DNA of 64,000 nt from Magnolia sinica (lineage: Eukaryota > Streptophyta > Magnoliopsida > Magnoliales > Magnoliaceae), in the NCBI RefSeq assembly GCF_029962835.1, contig NC_080575.1, positions 60,491,493 to 60,555,492 on the forward strand. The letters run 5' to 3'. Position 1 is the stretch's first letter; every line of letters begins with the position of its first letter. Both the position numbers and the translations under genes were made by a program. A model generated the notes under the pieces. The model was given only the letters and a program-made list of their open reading frames with translations. It made no database searches and was not told the DNA's origin. Below, piece after piece: positions 1 through 31,397 of the stretch.

Positions 1-960
1 TCTTCTAGAATTACAATCTTTCATTAGTTATAGGAGATTCATCCAACCTCTCATCATCTTGGTCATCTCAAATGACCACCTCATGCAAGATATTTGATCA
101 TTGGAGTTAAAGCATTGGCAACACATCAGCATCATGATTGGGAGAGCTGGTTGAAGCACAAGAAAACATCGATCGAGCAACACAAGAAGATACTACAAAA
201 GGAGCTCAATTCAACAAGCAAGTTGTCATTTGTAAGAAAACATATACTCCATATATATAGGATTGAGTGTAATAGTTTAAATTGACAAATTCAATTAAGT
301 TCTTGTGTAGGACCTTGATTCTTGTGTAGTACCTAAATCTAAATCCTTGTGTAGGCTACCGAACATAGGTGTGTACGTGTTAGTCTTTGAGGGAGCCTCC
401 CGGTGGAAGTAAACGTAGGTCTTTGGATTGAGTCCAAGGTTATTTGTTAGCCGATAGAAAATCAACTCAAATCTCTTATGGGAGCATCTGGCAGGAGTGT
501 GCGCTTGGTAGGTTATTGTGTAGGACCGAGGTTTGTAGCGAGCTTATAAAAAGCTACATAAGTTTTTGAGGGAATCGGTCATTACGTAGAATTGTAAAGG
601 TTATAGGTGAACCTGATTTTAAACCTCTGATAGTAAAATTAGGTACATACATGGGTTGAGTCCCACTTTCGTATATAATCATTTTAATGGTTTAAAGTAA
701 GCCTTTGTGCATCTACAGTTAGATTTGAATATCAAATTAAGGTGTAAAGATCATGAATGAAAGTGAATGGTTCATCGTCGGTCACTAATCAGTCCCTATG
801 TGTGATCACTGATTTATTTATTTTTTTAATTTTATTTATTTTATTTAAAGCAAGTGTTTGGTTATCTTAAGTTACAAGTTATTCCCCAAGTGTTTGATCT
901 CTTCTTTTCTTTTTAATATAGATACTAAGAATGACATTAAGGGTAGTCTTCTTCTGCCTC

Positions 961-2926
961 CACCCTAGTGGATGAATCTTCAAATAACATCAATTAAACT
1001 TAATGGTACGAGTTATTTACATCACAATGGGCTACCTACATCAATAGAAGTATTTCTTACCAGAATTATTTCATACAACACAACACTTTGGGATCCCCCA
1101 CCAAAGTTTCCAAATGGCCAGATTTCACTTCATTTTGGCGTAGATGTATCAATCGAATGGATTGGATGACATGTACACAACATGATGGCCCTCCATGTAG
1201 TAAAGGGTGAGAGGCCCTTCTCACATGCTCCCTGTGGTGTGGCCCACCTAAGTCATGGATTAACATCACGATCAAAGTGGATGTGACAAGTGTTGATAGT
1301 TTACCATGCAATTGAGTTGTTTGGGCATACCCACGTCATGTGTGCAATATCCAAGCCAACCATCAGATGCAACCTTGTGATTTTAGTTCCAGGGTCCAAA
1401 ACTCAGGCGAATCCGTCAATCAAGTGGGCCACAAATTGGGACACCGTTGGGAGGGGACACCCACTTTTGACCGCACAGACCCACCTAAGTTGCAAAAATG
1501 GCTTGATTTTTAGCATGAACCTTCATCCAGGCCAAATGAACCCGAGGAATAGCCTAGATTTCATATACACAGCATGGTGAGGCCCACCTGGTCGATGAGT
1601 GGCAGGCCTAATTTTTGGGCTCAGAACAAATACATCCTGGAGCCTGCCTGACAAACACACCAAATCAATAACTCCGCATCACCGGCACAAGAGGGGCATT
1701 TAGCTTGACACATGCAGCTGCAAGTTGCACACCCCAAATACAAAAGAAGAAAATGATGATGATGCTCAAGATTCCTAACAAATGCAAAGTTTACATATGA
1801 AATTCTTTTGTGAAACTGCTACAAATCAGATAACATAGCTCAACTCAACTCCCTCATGGATATCAAAGCTAGGATAACAAAGACACAGAGCTGCAGCAAA
1901 ACCATGCATGTTGTATAAGATCATGCTAGGTAACAGTTCTTTGGTGGCATCATCTTGAGATTTACTACACAGTTCATTAAGGGGGGAAAAGGCATGAGAC
2001 AGGGAGCAATGCTCAGCCCACGCACGTGCAGCCTACCAGAACGGCATCACGAGGGTCAAGTAATTCCACGACCTGGCCCAAGAATCAAGTGTTGCACATT
2101 AACCAGTTGAGCTTGGGCCACAGTTACAAAAAAAACTTATATCTAGAAAATTAATGATAATAATAATAATAATAATTTGTTGGAAGATTTCCAAATTGTT
2201 TCTAACATTGTGGCCCACCTAATGCGCGGAACAAGCTTGATTTTTGGTTGAGAACGTCTAGACGGTTGGACCCACTTATTGGACAGACTGGATATTGCAC
2301 CAGTCTGCCATGTTGGCATGGTATATAGATGCCAAGCCATGTACACATGCATGGGACAAGCAAACCTCTACGGTAGGTTCCTTTTAACGACGAGAATCAA
2401 AATGAGGATTGCCAAAAGGCGGAATTTTAGAATACCGAGACCAACACACCAGTTGGGCTCTTATAAGTCATCCAGGGCAATGGTTTGATGGGCCCCACCA
2501 AAAATCTCCCAATGGGGAGAGTCATAACCCTCCATTCAGTGCGTTGTAGACTGTTAAAAGATGCATCAAAGGGGCATTCAACAGGAAAAAAAACAAACGC
2601 ATACACAATGATCAGATAGATCGCTAGGGTATTAGGCACTGCAGGGACTATCAGATTGATGGTCTGCTCTGGCTCGCTGAAACATGGGTTCCACTTTCAT
2701 GGACCTAGTGCCCGAACCTACCATGCATATCCTATCGGAATTTAAACTTGATGAATCATTTCTTCATCAATCATCTAATAAACCAATTCAAGAAAACAAA
2801 AATGCCCCAAACAAAACAACAAGAACGAAAAAAAAAAAACTGCAGAATTATTCAGAGCCAAAAGATTCAAATATCTAAATCACACGCCAAAGTAAAATTG
2901 AAAGTTTCACTCAATATGAATGAAAA
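961..2926. other. Non-coding DNA, no gene recognised
   Basis: This stretch carries GGCCCACC-like motifs near 1236, 1420, 1577, 2207 and 2488 and a short (TAA)n tract near 2155. The short open frames on both strands have no recognisable domain and occur equally in the duplicate at 18900-20860. It lies downstream of the bL31-like gene, so part of it may be 3' UTR or its flank. I saw no polyadenylation signal that settles this. Confidence 0.5.
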
Positions 2927-3053
2927 TCATTTCTTTTCGGGTTCATCCTCTGTCTTTAGCCCATAACGGCGGTTGAACTTGGCAACCTGGCCAAGGCTCT
3001 GGGCAATCTGACGCCTCGCTCTAAAATGATAGACTTTACCCGTGTCATGTATT
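2927..3053 (-). pseudogene. bL31-like ribosomal protein gene, 3' part only (unit 1)
   Basis: This is the duplicate of the intact frame at 20862-21071 and keeps about the last 42 codons, including the segment GKVYHFRARRQIAQSLGQVA and the stop codon. The frame is cut at 3053/3054, where a sequence starting CACTACAAC begins. The start codon, the KGxHPQ motif and the upstream acceptor are missing, so this copy cannot make the protein. The retained codons match unit 2, which suggests the cut is recent. Confidence 0.85.
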
Positions 3054-3159
3054 CACTACAACAAAAATAAGTATAAACAGCATTTGCGCTACTCTTTCAT
3101 CGACGCTATGTAAGACCATCCGAAGGATATCTTACCATTAAAAAAAAAAAAACCCTAAT

Positions 3160-3185
3160 GGCCAGCGCGACTCTCTCCTATTTCC

Positions 3186-3223
<38 letters not shown>

Positions 3224-3560
3224 GGCTGCTTTGGGATCTCTCCAGCTGCAGCAACCTACTTTGGGATCTCACCGTAGTATCTAGATCTGCTACTCTCTTG
3301 TTTCCTAGGGTTTTGGATCTATTTTCTGCACTTTGCAAGGTTTTTTGACTGGTTATGGTGGGGATTTACTAGATCTAGAACTAGGGTTTGAATTTCAGAA
3401 AATTCAAGCGAGAATATGCTTTTTCTTTTTCCATTTTTCATCTGTGAATTTCTTGTGTATTTTTCAGGACTTTCTCCTCTCGTGAGCTGAGAGAGTTAAA
3501 AGACAGATTTGGATCTCATTCCACACTCTTCCATCTCCAATTTAAGGTATTGCCCTTTTC
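3160..3560 (+). other. Leader-like sequence with (CT)n tract, probably captured
   Basis: A pure (CT)n run at about 3190-3221 is followed by pyrimidine-rich sequence and ends in a donor-like AAG|GTATTG near 3547. CT-rich leaders of this kind are common in plant 5' UTRs. No coding frame follows that I can name. It may be the captured 5' end of a host gene inside the CACTA-like element. Confidence 0.3.
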
Positions 3561-3828
3561 CAACTCACTCACTCATTTCAAAACCCTAGATTTCTACTCC
3601 CTATTTCTCCAAATTTCTTCCAATATCCGGACTTCCCGACGAGATTCGACGATGTTACTTTGGATTTTGGTTTCGCTTTCCAGATTTCTGCAATTCTCTC
3701 CCCTTGATCTGATTTTTCAATAAACCTGCGTTTGCAACTGAATGGTTTTCGGTAGCAGTGGATCCAGCTCGGTTATCCATGCCATTTATCCGATGGGCCG
3801 CACTCTTGGATAGGGATGCCTAGAAAGC

Positions 3829-3960
3829 TCTTGGATTGGAAGATCCTGACCTTTTAACCGTTGTAATGTTTTCTGTTCGATGTGGACTGTTGCTGTACTC
3901 TCCGCTTCACAATCCATTCAAAGGCAATTTGTCAGAGGTTCAGGATCTTCCAATCTGGCT
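3829..3960. repeat. Short imperfect hairpin
   Basis: Arms reading GATTGGAAGATCCTGACC and GGTTCAGGATCTTCCAATC lie about 80 bases apart and are near-complementary. The loop has no recognisable content. It could be a tiny fold-back insertion within the CACTA-like body. Confidence 0.5.
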
Positions 3961-6360
3961 GATTCTTGTTTCTCAAGGTCTGCTTTCTGCATTTGGGGCC
4001 TTGTCCCTATCTTGACCCTTGAGTTCTCTTATAAAGAAGTGTGTAGGTCCTGCTGTATATTCTCTGCTATACACAGCCATGGGCTGTGTGTGGAGTTTGA
4101 GGATGTTTCATTTACATCTGCAAAACCAAGACAATAATTACCCTCTTAACTGTATTTTTCTCTATAAGAATCAACCAAAAATGAAGAAATGTCTCCAAAG
4201 CTTCCAAGTAAAAATATAAGTCTAATGCATATTTGCATTAACTCAATACAACTCCGGTATTATTTCACCACTCAAACTGAAAGCTTGTAGTAAAAATGAC
4301 ATGAAAAACGCTTATGACAACCAAATCACATCCCATGTTCATACAGCTAATGCATCAAAAATCCCCTGTTATACATGCAATTTTGCAATCCAAGAGCGCT
4401 GCAAATTGATGGTCACAATTCTTTCTCGATGATTTGTGGTGCAGATTCCTACCTCTTCTCATCTGTACTCATACAGCTTGTACAAGTGAAGACACGCACA
4501 AGGAAGACATACCTGCATTACATGCACCTTGGACGATAGATCTCTGCATTCTTCAATAAGTGCTCTTTCCCTAGCAACTACCCCAACAAGTTCTGAAATC
4601 ACATGATCCACTCCTACTGCCTGTGTTCATAGAAACTCAGTCGAAATAGATATCCAAGCCAACCCAAAATAGTTGGGACAAGGCTATGGTGATGGGTTCA
4701 AAATAGATCCCCAACTGCCCAAATAGAAAAAGGCACCCATTCCTTCTACCTATATATTCACAATTATTCTTTAGCCAAAATAGATACCCAAATCTCATAA
4801 TAGCTCGGACAAGGCTATTATGAAGATGGTGATGAGTCAAAATTGATAATCTGCTCAAACAGACAGTTGTAAGGTAGATTATGCATTCCTTTACACAAAC
4901 TTTTACTTACAAATTTCCACAACCTTGCTGCAGGTAGCTGAGGTTTCATCAGAATTAAGATATTCCACAAGATATTGCACTGCAACATACACACGTTTCC
5001 AATTTCCTGCAAGTTGCAAACAAATTACCATTCCAAGCTTTCTGCAAAATAGTTTTTTTTCTCCAAGGTATGTGCATTAAGTAGAACATAATACCAGTTA
5101 TAAACAAATTACTATTGCAAGCTTACCTGCATAATAGCTTTTCCAAGATTCCTTAGAAAGAAAGAGATGGAGAACATTTCACATGTATAGAGGAACTGAC
5201 TGTTGTCTAGAATCAACCAGACTAGCATGTGCAATCTTAGAACAAGGTCAAGGTTGGGTTAAAATTTAATTCTTGTTTTGACTTAGAATACAAGACAACT
5301 TTGCATGTTGTAGACTCTAGAAATCAGAGATTTTTTTTTTTTTTTTTATGTCACAACATAAAAATTGTATCAAGGGCTTAGATGAAGCTATGGCCCTTGA
5401 TAGAGTGGAATGACGGAACATGATTCATGTAGCCAACACCAATTAATCGAGAGGTTTAGATGATGCTGATGATGATGAAAGGATAGGAAGTGCCACAATA
5501 AGTGAAATATCATGTTTAACAAATTGAGTACAAGTGAGTATCTTTTCTTTCAATGCCATCCAGATGGAAGCCAGGGCTATAGGCAATGAATCAGAACTCC
5601 ATAATCAATATATTTGAGAAGTGCCATGATTGCAAGTGGAAAGAAGAAAATTAAATGATTTGTTGGAAAAGTCCTGTTAGATACCAAGGGCAAGACAGCA
5701 TCATGGTGGCCATCAAGACATCAGACAAACAGACTCCATATCTCATTAGAAATCAAGAAGCCACTCAAAGAATAACTAGAGATGGCCTCACAATCTATCG
5801 CAGACCAAATTGCTCATGCATCGAATCTATTTAGACAGTAACAAACCCTGGCCGCAAGGTGCACATGCCTTTAGACATCGAATCTATTTAGAAGCAATTT
5901 AGCCAGGTTTCCCCAAGATCATCAACCCCATTCTCCTGTATGTCCAGCTCAGTCAAATTCCTGTAACCCATATCAAATTTCAGGATCTTCAACAAACAGC
6001 GTAACTAGCAAAAATGTACTGTGGGACAATGTTAACCTTCCATTGTGGCCTTTGGTAATGACAAATTTTTAAGTGAAAAATAATCCACAATCTATGTAAA
6101 TCATGGTGGCCCTAGAAGCAAACCCTTGGTTGACATCCCATCTCCATTCTTCCCTATGGTGTGGCCCACCTGAGTTGGGGATTATGAGTATATTAATGTG
6201 TATTTTGTATTGGATTGCACTAGCCTACAAACAGTACCTTTCAAAATGTAGCATATCACAATATGGGAGCTTGTAGCCTATATCTTTCATTCAAATGCTT
6301 CTATCTCACTTTTGCTGTCACCTTTTCTAATTTGGGATCTACCTTAACTGTTGTTTGCAA

Positions 6361-7003
6361 ATTCAAAATGCAAGAGGTACTTCCACAACCAGCTGAAGCC
6401 GTCAAAGCTTTCCTGGACCGTGATGTAAAGTCAGCAGCAATGGTGGATACTCACAATCTCAAGGAGCTTTATCTGTTTTTGTCTCTTATGCATTCATGCA
6501 AATTTGATTAATTTACAGTTTATAGCTTAGTAGAATTGGCCATTCAAAGTGGACCTGAAATAAAGCAGGTATCTTTAAAGTAAGTTTTCTTATTTATTGT
6601 TTTTTAGTTGTTTGAGAATTAGTAACAACGTTTACTATGGTTGATATTTAGGTTGATACTCATTTTTAGGATTTGTATTATGCTCATGAGTTTCTTCTCT
6701 TTTGAGTCGTCTATTGAGAATTCATGTTCAAAATACACTGTAGTAGTGTCCAAGCATTTATTTTGAAAGAAATATTAAGAAGTGGCAGCAATTCTCTGTC
6801 AAAAGCAGAACTAATGGAAGCTGTGTCAAGGTATCTTCGTCAAAGGAATGTTTGTATTTCTTTTGTCTGAATATGCTTATTTCTGTTTTTAAATAATTAA
6901 TTTGTTCCTTTCTTGTTCCCATCCTCTTTTTTTTTTTTTTTTTGCAGGCTTGGGCTAAAGAGGACCTTCTCGAGGAACAAAATCAAGAGTTGGCCACCTA
7001 ACA
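6361..7003 (+). pseudogene. Captured multi-exon gene fragment, gene not identified
   Basis: Several exon-like segments lie in order. About 6380-6505 reads LPQPAEAVKAFLDRDVKSAA and onward. Segment 6519-6568, flanked by a tttacag acceptor and a gtatct donor, reads SLVELAIQSGPEIKQ. About 6774-6837 reads ILRSGSNSLSKAELMEAVSR. Segment 6948-7003, after a long poly-T tract and gcag, reads GLKRTFSRNKIKSWPPN. The helical SKAELMEAVSRYLRQR stretch and intact splice signals look like a real plant gene copied with its introns. I do not recognise the protein. It lacks a clear start and end, so it is a fragment. Confidence 0.55.
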
Positions 7004-8106
7004 GTATGTATTTGTTTTATGAAGCTTAAGTTGTATGACGAAATGTATATCATTGCACACCATGTATATTTGTATGTATTTTACATCTACCTGGCCATTA
7101 TAGCCATATCGGATGTGGGTTTTTCAACGGCATTATAGGCTCTGCCTACTTTGTAAAAACAACCCTGCCAGTTGGGAGATATATTCGCCCTTGATTTCGA
7201 TAAAGATAGTCAGTAAACATGTTTAGGTGGAAGGCCCAATGAAACAAGTCTATTCAATTTTTTATCAAAGGCATTTAATGTGTCAAGAATCATAGACAAA
7301 CAAGATATGTGCCCAAGTACAAAACAGAAATTGAAACATGCATGTGTTACACAGTTACACAAACGGAAGCCTCACACCATCAATTGAAGCTCATGCAACT
7401 CATTTTGCGTGAGTTTTGGAAACTGCACTTGAGTTTTAACAAGGGAACCATAACATTGAAAAAGTTTTTAGACTTCCAAAATTGTAACTTGAAAAACTTA
7501 GTTTAGGCTATACACTCTATTGACAGTCAAATGAGTTAAAATAGAATATGAGGGTCAGGACTTGATAAACTCTTGTTCATGAGAGTCCCCATGTCTTTAT
7601 CATATTGGAACAATTGAAGACAGTTGATTTCTAAATTCATTTAATTCTAGAACATGCTAGAAGTAGAGGTGGTTTAAACACAGATCACAAAGAGATTAGT
7701 GAGATCATGTAAAATAAAATCCGTGGAAAATACTATACAACCGAATCAGTTCTGTACTTCAATGATGATGATGATGATTATAATATTTTGGTAGAGAGCT
7801 GACCATGAATGTTCACTTCTGACTGTCTTCGAGCTTGCCAGACCAGTATTACTTTGCCTATGGGATAGATTGGACCATTTGAATGAGGAACCACTTTAGA
7901 ACAGGATGAAAATAGCAATTGCCCCATGTGAAATGTAAGTAATGTTTGACATGTGAAATATCTTATTTTTCCAACTATGTTTCTAAATTCTTTGAATATC
8001 TTTTGCTCTTATGCTTATCTTTCTCCTTCAGCAAATATTTTGATTCTCAGGTTTTGAGTAGAAGGACTTGAGCGTCGCAAAGTCAATAACAGAGGAAGCC
8101 CGGGTA

Positions 8107-8216
8107 AATGGATCTCAAGCCCTTTTTTAACTCCACCAATGCTTTCAGCTTCTTAACCAAAGTTCCGGACTCTGCAGATTTGGGCACTGTATGCAAACGA
8201 TTTGAAGACTTAAGGT
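8107..8216 (+). pseudogene. Exon-like segment, gene not identified
   Basis: The frame starting at ATGGATCTCAAGCCC reads through KVPDSADLGTVCKRFEDLR to near 8216. Its composition looks like coding sequence rather than random frame. I cannot assign it. It lies between the unidentified gene fragment at 6361-7003 and the TAF5 fragment, and may belong to another captured gene. Confidence 0.3.
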
Positions 8217-8452
8217 CACAGCTTTCTTTACTATTGTCTGTAGTTCATGCTGTTTCTTTCTCTTTTTAGTTCTTATATGGTTCCTTCTCCAGTGATAATT
8301 GGTGCATAATGTTTTCTGCGTTTATGGGGCTAGCAAGCCTCTTTACATTTATGTCTGTCTGTCTATATGTATGCATTAATATTGCCACGATGGTTCTGCT
8401 AAGGAGGTTGTGTAATGTGTGTTAAATGGTGTTGGTTTCAGTTAGTGTGCAG

Positions 8453-8606
8453 GGAGAAAATGAATCTGTTCCTAGCAAGCAATTGCTAGGTTAGGAGGAT
8501 GGGAAAATATCTTATACATTGTTTCAAGGTCATGCTGGGCCGCTTTATTCAACTACATTTAGTCCTCTTGGGGACTTTATTCTGTCTTCTTCTTCGGACT
8601 CAACAA
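8453..8606 (+). pseudogene. TAF5: TAF5 (TFIID subunit 5) exon fragment
   Basis: The segment sits between a tgtgcag acceptor and a gtatgt donor. It reads GENESVPSKQLLG, an in-frame TAG, then EDGKISYTLFQGHAGPLYST and TFSPLGDFILSSSSDST. TAF5 is a TFIID/SAGA-type scaffold subunit with a C-terminal WD40 propeller, and FQGHxGPVYSxxFSPxGDFILSSSxDxT is a propeller repeat of that family. Only part of the propeller is present and the frame holds a stop, so this is a dead fragment. Retained splice sites point to DNA-level capture rather than a processed copy. Confidence 0.8.
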
Positions 8607-8805
8607 GTATGTTTCTTCTCCTATCATCTTACTTTCTTTTCATGATAAGTGGACGAGCCTTTTTTGGGTCAGGTAAAAAAGACGGCTTGCATCTCGCACA
8701 CTTGTGCCATGAGACTGTGTGCATGAAATAGGATTTACAGGCAAGTGAGCTTACAAAACTCCATTTGGGCTTCGCTATTGGTAATTATGTATGCTAATCT
8801 TTCAG

Positions 8806-9455
8806 GATTGGATCAAAGAAATGGCAGCTTATGTTAAATCCATAGACAGTAATCATCTATTGGAGGTGGGGATTGAAGGATTCTATGGCGAATCGATGCC
8901 CGACAGGAAGCAATTTAATCCTGGTTACCAAATTGGAACGGATTTCATCTCGAATAACTAGATTCCAGGAATCGACTTTACGACGATTCATGCTTACCCA
9001 GATCAATGGTAATGTATATTCTACTTAATATGGATCCATGAGACTCACTTGTGAGCAACTACTTAATATGAATCCTTGAGACTCACTTGTGAGCAACCAC
9101 TAGTGAATGGGTCTATCTTAATTATACATTTATTGACCTTTTCCATCAAGATTGTTCAAACTCATACTAGCATTCTGCTCATGGTATCCTATTTTTCTTG
9201 TTTGATTGTTCACTCACAGGATACCGAATTCAAATGAGCAGGCCCAATCTGCTTTCCTTCAAAGCTGGATACAAGCCCACCTCCAAGATGCGAATACGGT
9301 CCTTGGAAAACCAATCCTCTTTACAGAATTTGGCAAGTCGTCTTGGATTCCAGGATATACGACAAGCGTAAGGGACAACTTCTTGGGGACTGTATATAAT
9401 ACCGTCTACGCCTCAGCAAGAAATGGTGGCCCATGTGGTGGTGGGCTCTTCTTGG
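8806..9455 (+). pseudogene. Endo-1,4-beta-mannanase (GH5) fragment, two exons
   Basis: Exon 8806-9008 follows ctttcag, ends before gtaatg, and reads [20 protein letters not shown], then [19 protein letters not shown] and IPGIDFTTIHAYPDQW. A second exon from 9220 reads SFLQSWIQAHLQD-like sequence (here AFLQSWIQAHLQDANTVLGK) and PILFTEFGKSSW up to GGPCGGGL. These match plant mannan endo-1,4-beta-mannosidase (GH5), which cleaves cell-wall mannan. The nucleophile glutamate in FTEFGKS is present, but the upstream NEP acid/base region is absent. Exon 1 has an in-frame TAG at 8959-8961, and similarity stops in the GGLFW region. It is a captured, non-functional fragment. Confidence 0.85.
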
Positions 9456-10959
9456 ATCCAAGGCAATTTTATTTTTTTTTTAAATTTATTATTATTATTA
9501 TTATTATTTTTTAATTTCTTCCTAATTGTTTACTCAGAAACATGTAAGCATGTAGTAACAAACCATGATTAGCAAGTTTTTCCATGGTAGTAACAAACCA
9601 TGATTAGCAAGAAAAAGAAGAAGAAGAGAATAATAAAAGAAAGAAATGTCAGACTTCAGTGAGCTATTTATACATCTAAACATGTAGTTATCTATGGATT
9701 TTCCACCAAACAACCTGGTTCATGTACTCGTCTCAAACATTTGATAATACCGGTGCATGCAAAAGCACATTTTCAAGGATTTACAATAAATATACTAGCT
9801 GAGCGTTAGAATTTCTAGAATTTTTATTTTTATTTCATACTGTGGAGGACAACCCACTCTTCTAGGCACCAGAGGAAACCATTAGGCTTGCTAACATGCC
9901 AACAGATCCCATCATCTTCTCCAACTCCTAATCTCAATCCAATTATATTTTGGAGCTTCTGCTCGAGTTCCTGTACCGAATTTTTTTTAATAAATCATGT
10001 TTAGAGCAAATAATGTAAAACCTCAATGTTGCCTAAACGTATACATCTTTATATCTATCTCGGTTACTTCCCATCCTTTCTATATGCATGTTTGGAACCC
10101 ATCTGGTGAGGTCCTTGGAGATCTTCAAGGCTAGAACATTGAAGGGAATTAAACAATTAGATAAGTGAAGAATGAGGTAATGACAGAATAGAACAGGGTG
10201 ATTATAAAACTACCCCCGCGGTTTGTATATCCTTGCACTTAAATTAGGACTTTCCACTTACCGCAATAGACACGAATGGGTTTTGTGTTGGCCTAAATGA
10301 TTTCTTATTCCATTTTTGTTTTTTCTGATATGCTTAAAAATGATTTAGGGAATTCAATACCCAACTGAATCTTTGCATGTCAAATCAATCATCTGGTCCT
10401 GCAGTTTGGGTCTGTGCCAGCTGAGTCAATGCTTAGGGAAAAAGTTGGTTTGACGAGTTTTGAATTACCGATCTGCCCACTATATACTCCCTGCAGCATT
10501 TTCACATCAAGCTCCACCACAATAGTATTTCACAAACATATCACATCACTGTAATATCGTCCATTTCTAATTGAACAACAATATAACTGAAAGTGGTGGC
10601 CACCAATATCTAGGCTGCATGTACTACATTGTAGCTATCTGTATGGGGCCTTGGTGGAATGAGCTTCTTGCGGTTCATATGCTGTAGCTCGAGTTTTGTC
10701 TTGTTATCAATTAATTGATTTATTTCTTACTTTTAGATTATTTCTTTAATATTAAAGATTGGTAAATTTTGGCGCTCTATTGTTTGACACTGGGTGCTTG
10801 TTATGTTTTAAATCACTTGTCAGTCAAACTGCTTCTAAAACTTTTCGGATGTCTGCTGTTGTGCAAACATTTCTTATATATGGTGATTACTGATATGAAT
10901 TACCAAACTAACTAGAAGATTCATGTATACCATTTTATTTATTTTTTATTTTTTTGCAG

Positions 10960-10997
10960 TTTGGCCTTGACCATACACTCACAACTGGTGTTATTAG
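10960..10997 (+). pseudogene. DEG/HtrA protease micro-exon fragment
   Basis: A 38-base segment after tttttttgcag reads FGLDHTLTTGVI and ends in AG before a GT donor. Plant DEG proteases of the DEG1/DEG8 type carry NPFGLDHTLTTGVISGLRRE, and the exon phase here would split the serine codon. Only this short piece is visible, so the call rests on 12 residues plus the splice context. Confidence 0.55.
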
Positions 10998-11091
10998 GTA
11001 GGAAGATCTGTAGTTTAATATTCACCTCTCAGTTTGCTAATAAGAAGGAATATTCTGATTTACTCCGTTGTTTATGGCCAGGCAAGTAGGA

Positions 11092-11392
11092 GTTTTTTTT
11101 TTTTTTTTGAAAGATAATTTCATGAAGAATTGGCTGAAGCCTAAAGAACTACAACTCAGACCATGAAATGGGAAACAAAAAACTTCCACCTAATACATCT
11201 GATGCTGTGGCCCATTGCATTACATTTAGTTTTGCCCTATTGAACACCTCTGATACCCTCCCACACTTATTCCTGAAGCAACCACTATTCCTTCCCCCCC
11301 AAATAAACCATAGACCGGCCAATAGGAAACAATGGTGATCGAATATTAAAAAGTTCGCGTGGGCCACAAAAGTTTTGGACGAATCTATATCT
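11092..11392 (-). mobile_element. L1-type LINE 3' fragment
   Basis: On the minus strand the sequence ends in a pyrimidine-rich ...ATTATCTTTC tail followed by an A tract (the T run at about 11093-11111). Upstream, frames read LLAGLWFIWGGRNSGCF, like the WxxWxxRNxxxF segment near the end of plant L1 ORF2. It is a 5'-truncated LINE piece within the CACTA-like body. Confidence 0.6.
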
Positions 11393-11522
11393 TAGAGTTA
11401 ATCATATTTATGTGAACACTAAGGACATTAAGGTAAATAATTATGGCTATTTTCCATTGTATGCACTTTTTAACTCTCAAGGTTCTGGAAACTGAACTTA
11501 CGTGAGTAATTCCCGATTACAG

Positions 11523-11655
11523 GAGACAATCTACACATACATCATGCCCGAGAACATTTTGAAGAAGTTTATTTGCATAGCAGATCTTCGGACTCAAATT
11601 GCAGGATATTTGTTTGGCATAAGCCCCCCAGATAACCCTCAAGTGAAGGAAATCC
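11523..11655 (+). pseudogene. PRP8: PRP8 splicing factor exon fragment
   Basis: After a ccgattacag acceptor the frame reads [20 protein letters not shown] then [20 protein letters not shown] and VKEIH. PRP8 is the central U5 snRNP protein, and its C-terminal Jab1/MPN region contains [28 protein letters not shown]...[10 protein letters not shown], which this nearly matches. Similarity stops after VKEI, where the canonical RCI is lost. Only one partial exon is present, so it is a captured remnant lying near the right CACTA-like end. Confidence 0.88.
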
Positions 11656-12047
11656 ACTATATTAGTTATCAATTAACATTAATATTTTGTAGCCAACTCA
11701 TCAAATTGAAGATGTGTATTGTAATAAATATTATATATTTTTTTATGTTGTCAAGTAATATAAATTTTGTTTAATATTCAGTTTTATTTGTATGACATTA
11801 ATTTTATGTTTCAAATATTTAAAAAATACAGGTTCCGATTGAATTATATATAATAAAAAAAATTACTGGCATGCTAGGGTCTTTCAAATCTATACAAAAT
11901 CTTTTACCGGCGCTTTATCGTGAAAAAAGTGTTCAGAAACCACTTCTACTAGCGCTCGGAGAAACTTTTACCGGCGCTTATTCGCGTCGCGAAAAAGTAC
12001 AATTGTTGGCGCTCAGACAAGCGCCGGTAAAACTCACCTAGTGCCAC

Positions 12048-12473
12048 AAATTTGGGGCATAGATTGGTCCTTCAAATCAGCCCGAAATTGGCAACGTCAT
12101 CTACCTGAATTTAATTTCATTTTTTTAAAGAACTATTGGGAGAAAGATATTAAATTGTTAAGTATATAAATTAAATATTTAGAAAATTAAATATATGAAT
12201 TTTGTAGTCAAATTCAGGTTACCTGATTTAAAAATTAATCAAACAGTCCGATACAACTTCTCACCAAAGAGTGGACCGTTACACCACCATAAACATGTTC
12301 CAATTTATAAATGAATGCATATTTGGAATGTTTAGAATATTCCGGATTTAATCCATATTTTTTTGGCAAAAAAATAAAATCAATTTGCACCGTTACGGCC
12401 CGTTACGCCCCCGTATCCGTATCGGTTTTAGAGGGCACCATTACGCCAACTGATACCAATATGGGATACCTTG
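12048..12473. mobile_element. Right part of hAT element (full version at 26790-28401)
   Basis: The sequence matches 27973-28401, ends in the terminal repeat GGGATACCTTG, and is followed by CTCATAAG, the target duplication seen at both ends of the unit 2 copy. The left part is absent because the CACTA-like right end lies at 12043. Subterminal CGTTACG-type motifs are visible near 12390-12450. Confidence 0.8.
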
Positions 12474-12481
12474 CTCATAAG

Positions 12482-13660
12482 GAAGTCCTATGCCCAAAAT
12501 CTCACTTTTCAAGCAGTTAATGTTCAGGCTTGACACCGCCTCATTGCACCACACTATCTTCCTCATGTTCTCCACCAACACATATGCTGCCTCATAGAAA
12601 AGGATGGTATCATTGGCAACTACAAGTGGGAAATCAAGGGTCCCGAGCTCGAAACTTCGAATCCACAGATACATGCCTCCTGGCCTTCAGTCAACATTTT
12701 GCTCTAAGCTTCAACCACCACAACAAATAAAAATGGATAATGGATCCCCCTACCATAATCCTCTCAAAGCACTAAAGAATCCTTACAGTCCAACACTGAA
12801 AACAAAAACCTATCTGACACACTCGAGCAACCAAGCCCTCCATTTCTGGCCATAGCCTAACCTCTCACGCATATAGTCCAAGAAACCCCAATCAACTTGA
12901 TCGTAGGCCGTCTCGATATCCAGCTTACACGCCACCTCCGCCGAGCCTTCCTTATGCTTAGAATCAATGCATTCATGAGCAGCAATGCATTCATGAGCAG
13001 TTAGGGCACTATTCACAATCCCCCCCCCCCAATGCACCTTGATTAACCAAGATGACTTTGGCAATTATTGCCCAAAATCTAGAAGCAAGGATTTTAGTGA
13101 AAATCTTATAGTGGCCCCCTATAAGGCTGATATGCCCGAAGTCCCTTCAAATTAACTGCGCCTTCGACCTTTGGCATAATAGCAATAAAAGAAGCTCCAA
13201 GTTCTTTCAACAGCCACACCTCTTGAAGAACTCAAAGACAGCTTACCAGATCTTTCTTCACCACACTTGGAAAAAAGCAGTCGGAAATCCACAGCTTCTT
13301 TCAATTCGTACTCGGCTACTAGATGTTCAAGAGCCCTCGCATCTATCAAGGATAGAAGATCAAACTGCAGATTGTCATTGTCCAATCTTAGCTTGATCAT
13401 CTTATCACTTTTCAGCAAGTTCTTGTAATTTTGTATGCAAAACGATGTCTCAAACTTGAGCCTTCTCCCTTGGAATATTTGCTTGCTTCTCTCAAGCCAA
13501 ATGACCCACACCGTGATTTGACACACCATCTTGTATAGAAACTTTTCCTACATTACTCCAGGCCATAGACGACCATCCAAAAACCAGCTCAGTTACCTTA
13601 TTTAGCATTACCCGGGCGATGCCAAACTTCTACAACACTAGAGTCCAAAACAAGGAGATT
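12482..13660 (-). mobile_element. L1-type LINE fragments (reverse transcriptase and ORF2 tail), unit 1
   Basis: Minus-strand frames read SFFIAIIPK-like sequence near 13170-13200, then CKLDIETAYDQVDWGFLDYM with LLECVR at about 12813-12930, then ANDTILFYEA and KSEILGIGLPYE at about 12485-12620. These correspond to the IPK, AYDxVDW and (F/Y)ADD regions of plant L1 reverse transcriptase, with the active-site motif decayed to VANDT. A WVIWLERSKQIFQG tail motif lies upstream at about 13450-13520, so fragments are out of normal order. In-frame stops and frameshifts are present, so it is inactive. Confidence 0.8.
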
Positions 13661-13689
13661 GTTTCAACCCATATATTGCCATCTTCAAC

Positions 13690-14045
13690 CTACAAACCTT
13701 ATCTAACTCCCTGAGCAACAAACCTAAGTGGTCTCTCAATATGTGTCTCTTCCATGAGATCTCCATGTACAAACACATTTTTAACATCAAGCTGAAAAAA
13801 TCGCAAACTATAATTAATGGCCACAGAGATTATAACACAGATGGCAATGTGTTTAGCAACAGGGAAAAAAGTATCTGTGTAGTCCAGGCCAAGAGTCGGA
13901 ATATAATGTTTAGCAACCAAACGAGCTTATCAACCTTTCCACAATACCATCAAGCTGAAATCCATAGCACGCTTGCATCCATCTCTACTGGGATAGGAAT
14001 AGGAGACTTCAATACAGGACTGAGAATTTTCCAACTCAATATATA
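13690..14045 (-). mobile_element. Ty1/copia reverse transcriptase remnant, unit 1
   Basis: The minus-strand frame shows GLDYTDTFFPVAKHIAICVI and FFQLDVKNVFVHGDLMEETH, the typical copia RT N-terminal motifs. It is a short broken fossil with no LTRs attached. It abuts L1 fragments on one side and a (TA)n tract on the other. Confidence 0.8.
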
Positions 14046-14117
14046 ACACACCACACAGGCATAAATATTACATACCGGACCCTACCCGACCACATTGCAT
14101 AGCAAACGGTCTCCAAG

Positions 14118-14118
<1 letters not shown>

Positions 14119-14151
<33 letters not shown>
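14119..14151. repeat. (TA)n microsatellite
   Basis: About 16 TA units. The duplicate in unit 2 (31398-31450) is much longer. Confidence 0.95.
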
Positions 14152-14155
<4 letters not shown>

Positions 14156-14537
14156 AAAATCCCAAAATAAACCATAAATGTTCATCGGAAATGAAAAATA
14201 ATTCATTAGCAGATATTAAGGGGCAAGAAAATACCTCTATCAAGCTCAAGAAGAGATCCAATCAATCAGAAAACTGAATCTTTAAGCTCCGTAGTTATAG
14301 AGATGAGAAAAGGGGAAAATCTGTTTTTTTTTTCTTCGTTTCAGCTCCAATGCTCTTGAAAATACGGCAAATGGAACTTCTTGCAGGATCGATTGATCGG
14401 CCAAAATCTCCTCTTCAATGGCTTTGCAGATCGAAAGAACCGGAAAATTGCATTTGGGGCCAGAGGTGTGAGCGCGTCGAGCTTTCGAAACCCTTAAAAT
14501 TTTGTGAGAGTGGATTACGTGCGGCACCGGCCTTACC

Positions 14538-15318
14538 TAACACGGTGCGGCCCTGAGCGTGGGCCCACCTTGATGTATGTCTAGTATATCTACGCCGTCT
14601 ATCCATTTTTCCAGATCATTGATCATGAGATAAAAAATGAAGCAGGTCCAAATCTTTGGTGGACCACGCTATAGGAAACAGCGGTGATTAACCATTAAAA
14701 ATATCTGTGGGCCATAAAAATTTTAGATCAATCTAATATTTGTTTTTTCCCTTCATCCAGGTCGGTGTGACCTAATCAAAAAGTGGGATGGAAAATAAAA
14801 ATTACGGTAGGCCCTGGAAACATTTAGGGCCTGTTTGGCCGAGCAGATCCCATGGTATTAGGAGGGATGGGATCGATTTTAAGGTAATGATAGTGGTGTT
14901 AGTGGATTGTCTTAAGATCCGTGGGATTGCTTATGTCTAGGTATGATTGGCACGCCGTGCATATCCCGGGATTTTACATTCCAATCCATCCAACCAAGGG
15001 ATGGGATCAATTTTAAGGTAATGATGGTGATGTCAGTGGATTGTCTTAAGATCCATGGGATTGCTCATATCCCGGGACAAGTTCACCAGATCTGTTTGGC
15101 TCGTCATGCCTATCCCAGGATATTGCCGATCCCATCCCTCCTAATACCGTGGGATCTGCCTGGCCAAACAGGCCCTAATGGTCCTTTTCAATCCCACTGT
15201 TTGCTGCAGTGTGATCCACCTGAGATTTAGATTTACTTCAGTTTTTATCGCATTCCCTCGAATGATATGGAAAGATGGACGGATAGCATAGATATACTGC
15301 ATATCCATCAAGGTTGCC
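14538..15318. mobile_element. Fold-back GGGCCCACC repeat with nested Tourist-like MITE
   Basis: The left arm runs from GTGGGCCCACCTTGATGTATG through a GTCTATCCATTTTTCC segment. The right arm, from about 15176, carries the complement around GTGTGATCCACCTGAGATTT and GATGGACGGATAGC. The arms would pair into a long hairpin. The element has no coding capacity and is interrupted at 14827-15175 by another MITE. Many relatives occur in the window. Confidence 0.7.
14827..15175. mobile_element. Tourist-like (PIF/Harbinger) MITE, unit 1
   Basis: Terminal repeats are GGGCCTGTTTGGCC and GGCCAAACAGGCCC. The left flank is TTA. The right flank here reads TAA, but the unit 2 copy (32129-32477) is flanked by TTA on both sides, giving the 3-bp target duplication of Tourist elements. 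The interior contains an imperfect direct repeat of about 125 bases around TTTTAAGGTAATGAT. Confidence 0.82.
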
Positions 15319-15404
15319 CCCCTCCCCCCCGATCACGGCCACACCGCCTTGGGTGAGGCTGGCGACGCACCTAATCCGTTCCCTAAATTTTTAAGATGTT
15401 TTTA

Positions 15405-16043
15405 AAAGTGCCTGTTTGGGAGCTTGGATTCGGAACCCCTGAATTTGGAACCGTGGATTTCAAACCCTTTGGATTTTGAAATCATCCTGTTATGTTTGGC
15501 ACCCTGAATTCAGGAATCCATGCATTCAGAAATCTGCATGGTATATTTATAGGGATTTGAATTTAATTGCTAAATCAATTTTAGTATCTTTAATTAGTGT
15601 AGTTATGTAATGTTTGACACAATGGTTGTAATAAGCCCATTGAAATATATACATTGTTCGAAAATGGTGAATTCGAAGTCTTGGATAGGCCACAAGCACA
15701 AGATCACATCGGAGTAACTAACCAATAATTTTTAACCGTTGATTTACATGGACAATGTTTGAACGGCACAGATTATCATATTAAAGTAATTATAGTGATG
15801 CAATTGATAATCTAATTGTTTTGGGATATCATCGCTGGGTCGTGTGCCCAATAGATTAATAGTCTAGTGACACATGGTACACATGCAACTCTTGAAAAGA
15901 TTTTACCCGTAATCCAAGCTTTCATCTTGGATTTCAAACCCTCTCTTTAAGGGGATTGAAACCCTTTGGATTTAAAAATTAAAACTCTCAGTTATTTTAT
16001 TGTGCTAAACATATCAGGGGATTTGAAATCCCCTTCAAACCCC
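15405..16043. mobile_element. MITE-like repeat, family D
   Basis: It starts at TGCCTGTTTGGGAGCTTGGA, and both ends are rich in GGATTTCAAACCC and its complement, suggesting inverted ends. Copies occur at about 32640-33240 and, in opposite orientation and truncated, at 59770-60176. No coding frame or clean target duplication was seen. Confidence 0.55.
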
Positions 16044-16367
16044 CCCCCCCCCCCCCCAAAAAAAAAAAGAAGCATAGTGAGCCCATGGGCTATGCGCAGA
16101 AGCATGGCGGAGCTGAAGAATGATGGTTATGTCATAGGGGAAGATGATTAGGATCAAATAAAATTTTAATCATTTAAACATAATTGCTTAACTTCAAGCA
16201 ATGTGTAAATTAAACTAAGTAAAGCAATTTAACATAAAGGCTTCCAAGCCATTAGTGGGTCCAATTACATAAACTAAAAATGATTTGACATTCATGCAAC
16301 TAATTTATAAATGATAATCACAAGCGCACAAAGCAAATCCAACCAGAAAACAATCTGCATTTATGTG

Positions 16368-16371
<4 letters not shown>

Positions 16372-16400
<29 letters not shown>
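16372..16400. repeat. (TA)n microsatellite
   Basis: About 14 TA units. The unit 2 duplicate at 33570-33650 is roughly three times longer. Confidence 0.95.
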
Positions 16401-16403
<3 letters not shown>

Positions 16404-17357
16404 TGAGACCCATAAATGAAATGAAATGATGTTATAGTGTGGTGGGATCCATAAATGTCAGGGGTAAATGTTAAATGTAAGGTGAGCTACACTTTCTTTA
16501 ACCACATTTTAATAGGCCCCACTATATGTATACTAATATATATTTTTTGTGACATTTGAGAAAAAGTTCTGAAAACTCTTAGAACCTCACTATATGATGG
16601 ACCACAAGAGGTAATAATTATTTATGTGGGCCCTTCCATGGTCTATATAGAGGGAATGATTATTTATTTGGGGATGGATTTTTCGAACATGTGAGAGAGG
16701 CATGGAACTTATTAGAAGCACTTGCCCGTCTCTTAAAATGGGGGCCTTTTGGGTCATATATGTACTAATATACAAGTGTGATATAAAATGCACAATTGAC
16801 TTGGATTGAAATTACATTTTTCCCCTTTAACTTGAACCGTAATAACTTGAGATTTCCATTTAAATTTTATTTCTCCATTTTATTTTTACACATTTTATAT
16901 ATTTAAGTGAGCATGGACACAAAACTATCATATGAGTTAGACATGGGCAACGCTTTAGTTGGTTTTTTTTTTTTATTATTTCTATTGGATGTAGGTTCTA
17001 CTTGGGCTAACTTGGAGGATTTTGGGCTAGGATTGGGCAGCATAAAGCTAACCCTTTAACAGCTCTAACTACTTTACACTAAGTGATAAGACTATGTTAG
17101 TGCAATGATTTTTACATCTTGTTTGTCAATCACATGAGTCCATATGTCAAGTAGTCGATTGAGCCCTTAGAAGCTGAAGAACAAAGAATTAAGAGAACAC
17201 GAGCATGAAGGAGCAAAGAACATGTAAATGAGATGCCTTGGTGACCCTAACCCTTGACCCAAAACAACCCCCGGAATCTCTAGATGATTCTTAGCCTTAT
17301 CGGTAAACTTTTTTAATCATCTCTTAGCCTTAAAAGCTTAATTGAAACATGATAAGT
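16401..17357. other. Non-coding DNA, nothing recognised
   Basis: This AT-rich stretch is duplicated at about 33651-34614. It holds only short open frames without domain similarity, and no structural RNA or element ends that I can define. Confidence 0.5.
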
Positions 17358-18640
17358 AAGGTTGTTAGAGATACAAAGCTGTTGTGAATTTATATGCCCA
17401 AAACAACAGACTTTCGAGTGGTGCTCGTTCTCATTGAGCATATGGAACCCTACAGGTAACTCATATGTCTCCAGGAAGTTATGATTTTTTATTTGAGTTT
17501 CTTAATGGCATCGAAGACCCATCGAAGGGTCCCCTCGATGCCATTGAAGACCACTCGATGGAATCGGGTAGCAGTGAGGAAACTATTTAGCAACAATTCA
17601 GCTGAAAATTCGATTTTCTTAATGTCATCAACAGAGTCATTTTCTACTTATTTTTTACTATTGAAACTCAAACTTTATATATAGGGCATTCGGTTTTTGG
17701 GCATTTGGATGAATTTTTTGTGCAACAGAAGCATAGGTGATTCCATGATCATATCCATCATCTAAAGCCTCTAAGTCCATGAGATCTAATTTATCTTTCT
17801 TGTAATTCATCACTTACAAGAGGATTTCAACTTCAATGTTGAAGATGAACTTGATCTCTACCTTATTCTAGATATTAAACTTGAACCTATAGTCAAATCC
17901 TTGTCTAAATCCTCTAGAACACCCATTTAGGTCAATCTTCTAGAATTACAATCTTTCATTAGTTATAGGAGATTCATCCAACCTCTCATCATCTTGGTCA
18001 TCTCAAATGACCACCTCATGCAAGATATTTGATCATTGGAGTTAAAGCATTGGCAACGCATCAGCATCATGATTGGGAGAGCTGGTTGAAGCACAAGAAA
18101 ACATCGATCGAGCAACACAAGAAGATACTACAAAAGGAGCTCAATTCAACAAGCAAGTTGTCATTTGTAAGAAAACATATACTCCTTCATACATATAGGA
18201 TTGAGTGTAATAGTTTAAATTGACAAATTCAATTAAGTTCTTGTGTAGGACCTTGATTCTTGTGTAGTACCTAAATCTAAGTCCTTGTGTAGGCTACCGG
18301 ACATGGGTGTGTACGTATTAGTCTTTGAGGGAGCCTCCCGGTGGGAGTAAACGTAGGTCTTTGGATTGAGTCCAAGGTTATTTGTTAGCCGATAGAAAAT
18401 CAACTCAAATCTCTTATGGGAGCATCTGGCAGGAGTGTGCGCTTGGTAGGTTATTGTGTAGGACCGAGGTTTGTAGCGAGCTTATAAAAAGCTACATAAG
18501 TTTTTGAGGGAACGGTCATTACGTAGAATTGTAAAGGTTAGAGGTGAACCTGATTTTAAACCTCTGATAGTAAAATTAGGTACATACATGGGTTGAGTCC
18601 CACTTTCGTATATAATCATTTTAATGGTTTAAAGTAAGCC
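17358..18640. mobile_element. LTR-like stretch, possibly Ty1/copia
   Basis: The stretch has a TATA-like CTTTATATATAGGGC near 17674. A later run, around GAGGGAGCCTCCCGGTGGGA, is followed by AAACGTAGGTC, wording that recalls copia LTR R/U5 regions. Copies occur in A1 (from the left edge) and A3. Exact ends, target duplication, primer site and internal region were not found, so family and limits are uncertain. Confidence 0.3.
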
Positions 18641-20990
18641 TTTGTGCATCTATAGTTAGATTTGAATATCAAATTAAGGTGTAAAGATCATGAATGAAAG
18701 TGAATGGTTCATCGTCGGTCACCAATCAGTCCCTATGTGTGATCACTGATTTATTTATTTTTTTAATTTTATTTTATTTTATTTAAAGCAAGTGTTTGGT
18801 TATCTTAAGTTACAAGTTATTCCCCAAGTGTTTGATCTCTTCTTTTCTTTTTAATATAGATACCAAGAATGACATTAAGGGTAGTCTTCTTCTGCCTCCA
18901 CCCTAGTGGATGAATCTTCAAATAACATCAATTAAACTTAATGGTACGAGTTATTTACATCACAATGGGCTACCTACATCAATAGAAGTATTTCTTACCA
19001 GAATTATTTCATACAACACAACACTTTGGGATCCCCCACCAAAGTTTCCAAATGGCCAAATTTCACTTCGTTTTGGCGTAGATGTATCAATCGAATGGAT
19101 TGGATGACATGTACACAACATGATGGCCCTCCATGTAGTAAAGGGTGAGAGGCCCTTCTCACATGCTCCCTGTGGTGTGGCCCACCTAAGTCATGGATTA
19201 ACATCATGGTCAAAGTGGATGTGACAAGTGTTGATAGTTTACCATGCAATTGAGTTGTTTGGGCATACCCACGTCATGTGTGCAATATCCAAGCCAACCA
19301 TCAGATGCAACCTTGTGATTTTAGTTCCAAGGTCCAAAACTCAGGCGAATCCGTCAATCAAGTGGGCCACAAATTGGGACACCGTTGGGAGGGGACACCC
19401 ACTTTTGACCGCACAGACCCACCTGAGTTGCAAAAATGGCTTGATTTTTAGCATGAACCTTCATCCAGGCCAAATGAACCCGAGGAATAGCCTAGATTTC
19501 ATATACACAGCATGGTGAGGCCCACCTAGTCGATGAGTGGCAAGCCTAATTTTTGGGCTCAGAACAAATACATCCTGGAGCCTGCCTGACAAACACACCA
19601 AATCAATAACTCCGCATCACCGGCACAAGAGGGGCATTTAGCTTGGCACATGCAGCTGCAAGTTGCACACCCCAAATACAAAAGAAGAAAATGATGATGA
19701 TGCTCAAGATTTCTAACAAATGCAAAGTTTACATATGAAATTCTTTTGTGAAACTGCTACAAATCAGATAACATAGCTCAACTCAACTCCCTCATGGATA
19801 TCAAAGCTAGGATATCAAAGACCCAGAGCTGCAGCAAAACCATGCATGTTGTATAAGATCACGCTAGGTAACAGTTCTTTGGTGGCATCATCTTGAGATT
19901 TACTACACAGTTCATTAAGGGGGGAAAAGGCATGAGACAGGGAGCAATGCTCAGCCCACGCACGTGCAGCCTACCAGAACGGCATCACGAGGGTCAAGTA
20001 ATTCCACGACCTGGCCCAAGAATCAGGTGTTGCACATTAACCAGTTGAGCTTGGGCCACAGTTACAAAACAAACTTATATCTGGAAAATTAATAATAATA
20101 ATAATAATTTGTTGGAAGAATTCCAAATTGTTTCTAACATTGTGGCCCACCTAATGCGCGGAACAAACTTGATTTTTGGTTGAGAACGTCTAGACGGTTA
20201 GACCCATTTATTGGACAGACTGGATATTGCACCAGTCTGCCATGTTGGCATGGTATATAGATGCCAAGCCATGTACACATGCATGGGACAAGCAAACCTC
20301 TGCCGTAGGTTCCTTTTAACGACGAGAATCAAAATGAGGACTGCCAAAATGCGGAATTTTAGAATACCGAGACCAACACACTAGTTAGGCTCTTATAAGT
20401 CATCCAGGGCAATGGTCTGATGGGCCCCACCAAAAATCTCCCAATGGGGAGAGTCATAACCCTCCATTCAGTGCGTTGTAGATTGTTAAAAGATGCATCA
20501 AAGGGGCATTCAACAGGAAAAAAAAAACAAACGCATACACAATGATCAGATAGATTGCTAGGGTATTAGGCACTGCAAGGAATATCAGATTGACAGTCTG
20601 CTCTGGCTCACTGAAACATGGGTTCCACTTTCATGGACCTAGTGCCCGAACCTACCATGCATATCCTATCGGAATTTAAACTTGATGAATCATTTCTTCA
20701 TCAATCATCTAATAAACCAATTCAAGAAGACAAAAATGCCCCAAACAAAACAACAAGAACGAAAAAAAAAAAAACTGCAGAATTATTCAGAGCCAAAAGA
20801 TTCAAATATCTAAATCACACGCCAAAGTAAAATTGAAAGTTTCACTCAATATGAATGAAAATCATTTCTTTTCGGGTTCATCCTCTGTCTTTAGCCCATA
20901 ACGGCGGTTGAACTTGGCAACCTGGCCAAGGCTCTGGGCAATCTGACGCCTCGCTCTAAAATGATAGACTTTACCCGTGTCATGTATTCT
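17936..20990. repeat. Tandem duplication, block A, copy 2
   Basis: Block A follows block B directly here, as at 35192, giving the order A1-X1-B1-A2-X2-B2-A3. The sequence matches 1-3053 almost base for base. After 20990 the bL31-like exon continues uninterrupted, unlike in copy 1. Confidence 0.93.
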
Positions 20991-21071
20991 AGTCATCATA
21001 ACCTGAATCAGTCTTCCACTCTGTGTCACATATGATATCCATTGCATCTGGGGGTGCAATCCTTTCCTCAT
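20862..21071 (-). CDS. Mitochondrial-type ribosomal protein bL31-like, 69 aa
   Basis: This complete small frame begins MRKGLHPQMQWISYVTQSGR and continues with GKVYHFRARRQIAQSLGQVA, KFNRRYGLK and an acidic-basic tail before TGA. The KGxHPQ start and the conserved spacing to KFNRRYG fit the bL31 family, a late-assembling protein of the large ribosomal subunit. The diverged central part, lacking zinc-binding CxxC, resembles plant mitochondrial members rather than the plastid one. The ATG was chosen because it opens the family's conserved start. Eight bases upstream a tgttcag acceptor suggests a 5' UTR intron extending into 21072 and beyond. No nearby coding partner is visible. This copy looks intact; its unit 1 duplicate is cut in half. 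Confidence 0.8.
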   Translation of the reverse strand: MRKGLHPQMQWISYVTQSGRLIQVMMTRIHDTGKVYHFRARRQIAQSLGQVAKFNRRYGLKTEDEPEKK

Positions 21072-21353
21072 CTTGAAATCTGAACAGCCACATTACAGAA
21101 ATTTAACAATGAAAATAAGAAAACTCAACAATTGCAAGATGCACGTAGTTCCACTCATCATGTAGAATGGGTTGAACAATGGCTATAAGCTCACACAAGA
21201 TACTTTAATGTCAGCTCTTTCAGCCAAAAATATAGAGGAGATTTGTACAAAAACAATTTAGGGTTTTCATTGCCGCATGTGCCAACTCTGAACAAGTCCA
21301 AGCACCCACTCGTTAGGTTGGCAGCACGTGTATGAACGAAAAATGAACACTTA

Positions 21354-21665: not shown

Positions 21666-21861
21666 TTGGGAGAAATGGACCAACAGTCCAAATTCAGCAT
21701 ACGTGTAGTCGACAGACCAGCCTAATCATTGGGCCAGGAAATATTTGCAGTGGGCTCTAGATGAGTGACCTAGATATTGCACATGGTACATTGGCATTTG
21801 TGCCATGAAGAAACCTTTCAACCATCTTGGCATAGTTTGCTTAAACGCTCTCTATTGGAAC

Positions 21862-22802: not shown

Positions 22803-22833
<31 letters not shown>

Positions 22834-22941: not shown

Positions 22942-22949
22942 ATTGGAAC

Positions 22950-31324: not shown

Positions 31325-31396
31325 ACACACCACACAGGCATAAATATTACATACCGGACCCTACCCGACCACATTGCATAGCAAACGGTCTCCAAG

Positions 31397-31397
<1 letters not shown>

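Follow-up and report, generated by a model that had tools for sequence, protein, structure and literature searches.

Positions 3054-12048 of the stretch of Magnolia sinica DNA analysed here (64,000 nucleotides, hereafter the window; C3:60491493-60555492) are best read as a non-autonomous CACTA element, truncated and carrying captured gene pieces in the manner of Pack-CACTA elements, rather than as a duplicate of some donor region. We consider it highly probable that the reading holds as a whole, that is, that a Pack-CACTA-kind copy with cargo captured at the DNA level inserted into an exon and later lost its 3' terminus by deletion. This class of element is already known, and the present copy displays mosaic assembly with unusual clarity. 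Searches were run against the 1.84-Gb genome of 127 contigs; plain coordinates below are window positions, C numbers denote contigs and L numbers the loci fetched from them.

The element is composed of the following parts:

3054-3190, plus strand: CACTA 5' terminus (CACTACAACAAAAATA...) with the adjoining subterminal part; ATT stands before the terminus
3191-4001, plus strand: leader module with a CT repeat, common to CACTA elements having other termini
4033-4209, 4212-4473, 4472-4892, 4923-5371, 5383-5876 and 5891-6057, plus strand: mosaic tiles with no named coding match, each matching other loci
6181-6439, plus strand: piece of an eL24 exon and the DNA around it, which recurs as a repeat at no fewer than 22 other places
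6648-6763, plus strand: 116-bp repeat, found at at least 10 places at 97%
6764-6852, plus strand: unnamed exon-like piece (KEILRSGSNSLSKAELMEAVSRYL), also in L027 and L044
6853-7102, plus strand: coiled-coil-like gene, an exon (6948-7003) between two intron parts; donor C6:28.44 Mb (L028), divergence K 0.029
7097-7749, plus strand: piece of 653 bases matching C3:97.91 Mb (L029) at 90%, gene unnamed
7750-7927, plus strand: piece of 178 bases from C12:57.26 Mb (L043), 97%, gene unnamed
8139-8310, plus strand: NUP155 exon and intron; donor C7:83.87 Mb (L042), 97%
8309-8643, plus strand: TAF5 WD40 exon and intron parts; donor C10:73.03 Mb (L040), 94%
8643-9452, plus strand: endo-beta-mannanase, two exons and the intervening intron; donor C14:0.68 Mb (L041), 91%
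9609-11322, plus strand: DEG1 protease, an exon (10960-10997) between two introns; donor C2:10.05 Mb (L026)
11378-12048, plus strand: family 3' region, cut before the terminal inverted repeat, including a PRP8 fragment (11487-11663)

Searches of the plus frames against PDB identified eL24 (6324-6437, E 3e-9), NUP155 (8135-8221, E 2e-4), the WD40 part of TAF5 (E 9e-5), the two mannanase exons (E 1.5e-29 and 2e-20) and PRP8 (11487-11663, E 1e-20), and DEG was recognised through its donor, the next exon of which is Protease Do-like 1, chloroplastic (E 6.5e-37, PDB). Ribosomal_L24e and WD40 lay below the curated Pfam cut-off in the window and were not counted; the PDB matches support both. The mosaic of TAF5, mannanase, DEG and PRP8 sequences proposed in a preliminary description of the window is thus confirmed. 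Its inventory was correct for these named genes and had overlooked eL24, NUP155 and many unnamed tiles. The C6 gene had no match in PDB that would name it. PDB likewise gave no match for a downstream exon at the C12 donor locus, which may be kinase-like.

Five pieces have intron-containing donor genes, namely the C6 coiled-coil-like gene, NUP155 on C7, TAF5 on C10, mannanase on C14 and DEG1 on C2. At these loci (L026, L028, L040, L041 and L042) further exon-like frames of the same gene continue beyond the captured piece; the flanking exons were recognised by eye, except for DEG, which was named through PDB. The donors found in our search of the genome are dispersed over C2, C6, C7, C10, C12 and C14, in separate surroundings and not as neighbours, and they differ from the captured pieces by K 0.029-0.084. 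Each mannanase exon (8806-9008 and 9220-9463) is preceded by AG, with a GT-AG intron in between, and AG and GT flank both the DEG exon and the exon at 6948-7003; these pieces keep their splice sites, as had been described. Introns are retained and the donors lie on different chromosomes. The mosaic is real and arose by gene capture at the DNA level, in agreement with the earlier proposal. The four junctions for which both donors are known are abrupt, their alignments overlapping by 6, 0, 2 and 1 bases. In the stretch 4033-6057 the best 40 of 2116 candidates were scored, yielding at least six tiles. Two candidate loci were set aside: L030 is not a plain eL24 gene, as the piece recurs at at least 22 places, and L027 (C9:22.13 Mb) is not the donor of 6648-7102, as the match is followed downstream by a CACTA 3' end on the same strand.

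The assignment to the CACTA class is supported by the 5' end and by the relatives of the element. A search with 3054-12043, in which the best 40 of 3524 candidates were scored so that counts are lower bounds, returned at least five long relatives besides the element itself, at 94-95%:

C1:88739081 (L002/L021), sharing 3054-9272
C4:114307257 (L003), sharing 3054-8824
C7:28367174 (L004), sharing 3054-8824
two copies on C8 (L005 and L006), sharing 3054-6734

Among the matches listed, other places resemble the element only over its first ~948 bases or over its last ~660. The two C8 copies (L006, C8:2483027-2486736; L005, C8:2648259-2651979) share the same flank and lie ~165 kb apart. Because their flanks are the same, they probably represent one insertion duplicated later with its surroundings, and the five relatives would then correspond to four insertions.

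The 5' boundary at 3054 had been placed correctly, since the relatives begin there. CACTAC opens seven of the eight relatives printed at this point, CATTAC being found in L004 (C7), and the 5' flanks differ among the eight, L005 and L006 excepted. At the other side, L032, L033, L037 and L038 extend ~120 bp past the end of the window element, to TTGTTGTAGTG; the sequence of L034 stops before the 3' terminus, at the end of the fetched stretch. The window copy tracks its relatives until ~12048-12051 and departs ~120 bases short of the terminus. The TAGTG at 12043, previously taken as the 3' boundary, is not the element end: L033, L034 and L037 have CTAGCGCC at the same position, and the motif is a chance change within the subterminal region. 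The element instead ends at ~12048 by deletion, with no CACTA terminus. The window copy retains the 5' end of the CACTA...TAGTG terminal inverted repeats and has its 3' repeat deleted, the C1 and C18 (L032) relatives having both; by sequence descent it belongs to a CACTA family, as a truncated derivative and not as an intact element. As a candidate subterminal repeat, GGCGC/GCGCC occurs, by plain count, four times in 11700-12048 and not at all in 3054-3300.

Helitrons have neither CACTA ends nor 3-bp target duplications. The absence of a target duplication, as a Helitron feature, is contradicted by two relatives which combine CACTA ends with 3-bp duplications, that on C1 (88739081-88746328, TAG/TAG) and L032 on C18 (AAG/AAG). 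The element shares with Pack-CACTA elements the lack of transposase, donors elsewhere in the genome, and a repeated family with common termini and variable cargo. The leader also recurs with other termini: L035 and L036 join it at 3191 behind a different 5' end (L035:408-1211; L036:316-1121), as if CACTA families exchanged internal parts. In the C4 copy (L003:7240-7740) the 5' end and its flank are tandemly duplicated, ~376 bp apart. On the minus strand of L027, the 3' ends of two different types of CACTA element stand in succession at positions 8582 and 9945, ~1.4 kb apart, which is possibly a fusion arrangement.

The PRP8 piece stands apart from the rest of the cargo. It is present in seven of 12 stretches from 3' regions, with an in-frame stop in all but the window copy (6 of 7). 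A genome search with 52 PRP8 residues, in which all 49 candidates were scored, gave 48 rows, 40 of them with at least one stop. For at least 18 of the 48, the place is a family 3' region (our own-genome search accounts for 15, the others being the window copy, the C4 copy and L032), and 15 of these 18 carry a stop. A recent private capture is thereby ruled out, and the earlier view of PRP8 as captured by this element does not stand. The piece is an old part of the family 3' region and looks like coding sequence in decay.

How the mosaic grew can be approached through the points at which relatives depart from it. They leave the shared sequence within older cargo, the C8 copies at 6734, those on C4 and C7 at 8824 and that on C1 at 9272, and other DNA follows. 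Within the fetched stretches, the C1 and C4 copies run as far as a CACTA 3' end, and their 3' terminal regions are ~65-75% identical to the commoner type. A PRP8-bearing 3' region lies 9.4 kb past the C7 breakpoint and may be the end of that copy; the C8 copies have only partial 3'-region matches. In the DNA peculiar to the C1, C4 and C8a copies, no host gene exceeded the Pfam cut-off in the plus frames (Papo_T_antigen in L021 was below it and was not counted).

We lean towards stepwise fusion on the 3' side, because the relatives share their left part and differ on the right, as in a published fusion model. Fusion of elements inserted near each other has been proposed for Pack-TYPE elements (PMC8903248), and terminal deletions in such fusion have been described (PMC13317346). 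According to this model, a transposase supplied from elsewhere would have moved the element, and its cargo would have been built stepwise on the 3' side. An element lacking its 3' end would have become linked to the DNA downstream of it and to a 3' end supplied by another family member, the left part being kept and the right part replaced. By the time of its last jump the element had gathered many tiles and parts of at least seven host genes, PRP8 among them as an old family part. Insertion into the bL31m coding exon of one tandem unit followed, and then deletion of the 3' terminus together with ~7 kb, as comparison of the units shows. The window copy should no longer be mobile by the normal route.

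Several observations weigh against this account of the element. The tree of the shared 3.68-kb left part is nearly a star, and its branch order cannot separate growth from pruning. L044 (C18:19.9 Mb) carries the pieces in the same order and lacks 6853-8182 and 8414-8715; this looks like internal deletion rather than growth, so that internal deletion would occur as well. The flanks of the C4 copy mismatch (GTT/CTT), and the right-hand target duplication of the window copy is gone, the empty site of the next tandem unit being compatible with ATT. Pfam searches in six frames of the element returned no transposase family, an autonomous partner elsewhere not having been searched for. Our own-genome searches found no origin for 6440-6647, 8063-8138 and 11323-11377.

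Some of these features would also be expected from faulty gap repair after excision, in which template switching or broken-off synthesis produces insertions and internal deletions and both ends are kept. The Rubin and Levy mechanism is reportedly one of abortive gap repair. Junctions with little or no shared sequence, the resemblance of L044 to an internally deleted derivative, and a near-star tree, which fits repeated independent rearrangements, all agree with such repair, and the Rubin and Levy mechanism has been pointed to for CACTA capture (PMC8978399). However, the C1 and C4 copies differ in their 3' terminal regions too, and replacement of these would be unexpected from repair inside one element. 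We regard gap repair as a plausible route, although not the probable one.

The captured pieces share one orientation. In the window, all seven gene pieces of established strand are sense (frame scans give the strand of eL24, NUP155, TAF5, mannanase and PRP8, and the donors give that of DEG and of the C6 gene), and the minus frames of the element gave nothing below E 0.1 in Pfam or PDB, so that the shared plus-strand orientation noted earlier is upheld. Six other elements, selected for similarity to the window element, were scanned with Pfam on both strands, covering 5 kb of each of L034, L036 and L038. Five of them hold a host gene above the cut-off:

L038:5069-8258, sense: legumain
L034:7398-7700, sense: metallophosphatase
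L032, sense: MORF
L035:2498-3419, sense: ribonucleotide reductase
L031:2976-3134, sense: CNOT1

No host gene above the Pfam cut-off was found in L036 or on the minus strands of the six. The matches to kinases and Synaptobrevin in L035, TRAF in L036, DUF3915 in L031 and L034, and BipA_C on the L031 minus strand were below the cut-off and were not counted. Sense pieces thus number 12 of 12 over six elements (~0.0005, two-sided, if independent), or 10 of 10 (~0.002) when L031 and L035 are left out, whose pieces may lie outside the element as their 3' ends are unseen. L032 has both of its ends, the L034 piece falls within sequence that L033 also has, and the L038 piece is flanked on either side by family sequence. 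A nested long terminal repeat retrotransposon on the L031 minus strand was excluded from the count. In the titles and abstract openings of open-licence papers we found no paper on orientation bias in CACTA captures. As a tentative and rather doubtful extension, we propose that a CACTA lineage, whose members share a leader that may be transcribed, takes up pieces only in sense and only on its 3' side, capture being tied to transcription and each piece extending an exon chain downstream of the leader; the PRP8 exon would have become a standard 3' part, and the window copy, having lost its 3' end along with host DNA, would be a natural intermediate of such a cycle.

One might ask whether read-through of these sense exons yields a working chimeric gene or a regulatory RNA. 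The pieces of known strand are all sense, several keep their splice sites, and the soybean CACTA element Tgm-Express1, in intron 2 of F3H, offers a precedent for which chimeric splicing was shown (PMC1947982). A spliced chimeric RNA is accordingly possible. However, the longest plus-strand stop-to-stop frame in the element has 102 codons, the mannanase exons join in frame with one stop in the reading, and the copy is truncated, which makes a working product very improbable. From the same three features, nothing in the sequence speaks for a role of the pieces as protein.

The insertion site can be read from the neighbouring DNA:

2930-3053, minus strand: C-terminal part of bL31m, a mitochondrial ribosomal protein, cut by the insertion
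20990-27976: host DNA absent from the element-bearing unit, holding uninterrupted upstream bL31m coding sequence

Comparing the window with itself, 1-3054 corresponds to 17936-20989 (98%) and 12049-18493 to 27977-35751 (96-97%), and 14463-17943 is matched at 96.8% by 3.5 kb of sequence to the left of the window. This is a tandem segmental duplication over 1-35751, with a unit of ~17.9 kb holding a bL31m gene. To the left of the window there is another unit (L039), and part of a third is found at 35192-35751. The element-free unit reads CATGTATTCTAGTC where the element-bearing unit reads CATGTATT-CACTAC, and it has 6987 bases (20990-27976) in place of 3054-12048. The left flank matches a bL31m chain in PDB (E 3.6e-4), and near 20975 the bL31m reading continues upstream unbroken in the element-free unit, as a local reading and not the whole gene. 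A bL31m intron at the left flank is ruled out, since the reading continues into the flank. The element occupies a coding exon of bL31m in one tandem unit, the next unit retaining the empty site, and comparison of the units shows that a deletion removed the 3' terminus of the element and ~7 kb of host DNA.

In the simplest order, the tandem duplication would have come first, the element would then have entered the exon of one copy, and a single deletion would have followed. Because the DEG piece differs from its donor by K 0.032 and the two units from each other by K 0.015-0.018, capture would be older than the duplication and insertion, given equal rates and no gene conversion. The preliminary description had set ordinary segmental duplication against capture. 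A tandem segmental duplication does surround the element; what it contains, however, is the flanking DNA, the cargo being absent from it. The next unit has the empty site and the donors lie in separate contexts on the six contigs named above, so that capture stands, and duplication of a gene-rich donor region is practically untenable as an alternative. The right half of the window contains further long repeats, at 60177-61062 / 63118-64000 and 40803-45993 (95% direct; ~71-80% inverted copies).

Similar mosaics are known from other plants. Like the window element, Tgm-Express1 is described as a single CACTA element holding several unrelated host gene fragments with introns kept; it has five fragments in 5.7 kb, whereas the window element has pieces of at least seven genes, has lost its 3' end and lies in an exon (PMC1947982). 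Pack-CACTA and Pack-TYPE elements of Arabidopsis, rice and maize are likewise reported as non-autonomous, with CACTA ends, fragments from multiple loci and a proposed growth by fusion (PMC8903248). In contrast to these, the window relatives share a left part with several right parts, and the PRP8 piece is found in the 3' region of at least 18 elements. In the Tpn1 family of Ipomoea nil, internal sequences are described as replaced by host genic DNA with the termini staying (PMC5105172); this is a different plant, and the likeness noted is one of structure. On wheat chromosome 3B, 140 CACTA capture events with 145 genes are reported, with captured DNA common to two families, as for the leader at 3191-4001; that is about one gene per event, whereas the window element has many pieces in one (PMC4290129). 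Maize Helitrons described as capturing stepwise are similar in gathering several fragments over sequential transpositions (PMC3288121).

The pickup of several unrelated genes by plant DNA transposons is still debated. This locus offers donors, base-exact junctions, an adjacent empty site, and relatives with a common left part and different right parts. For annotation it serves as a warning, as the TAF5, NUP155, mannanase and PRP8 matches at this locus are transposon debris. The interest of the case lies in its clarity and in the orientation result, and the one-sided orientation of captured genes is testable genome-wide.

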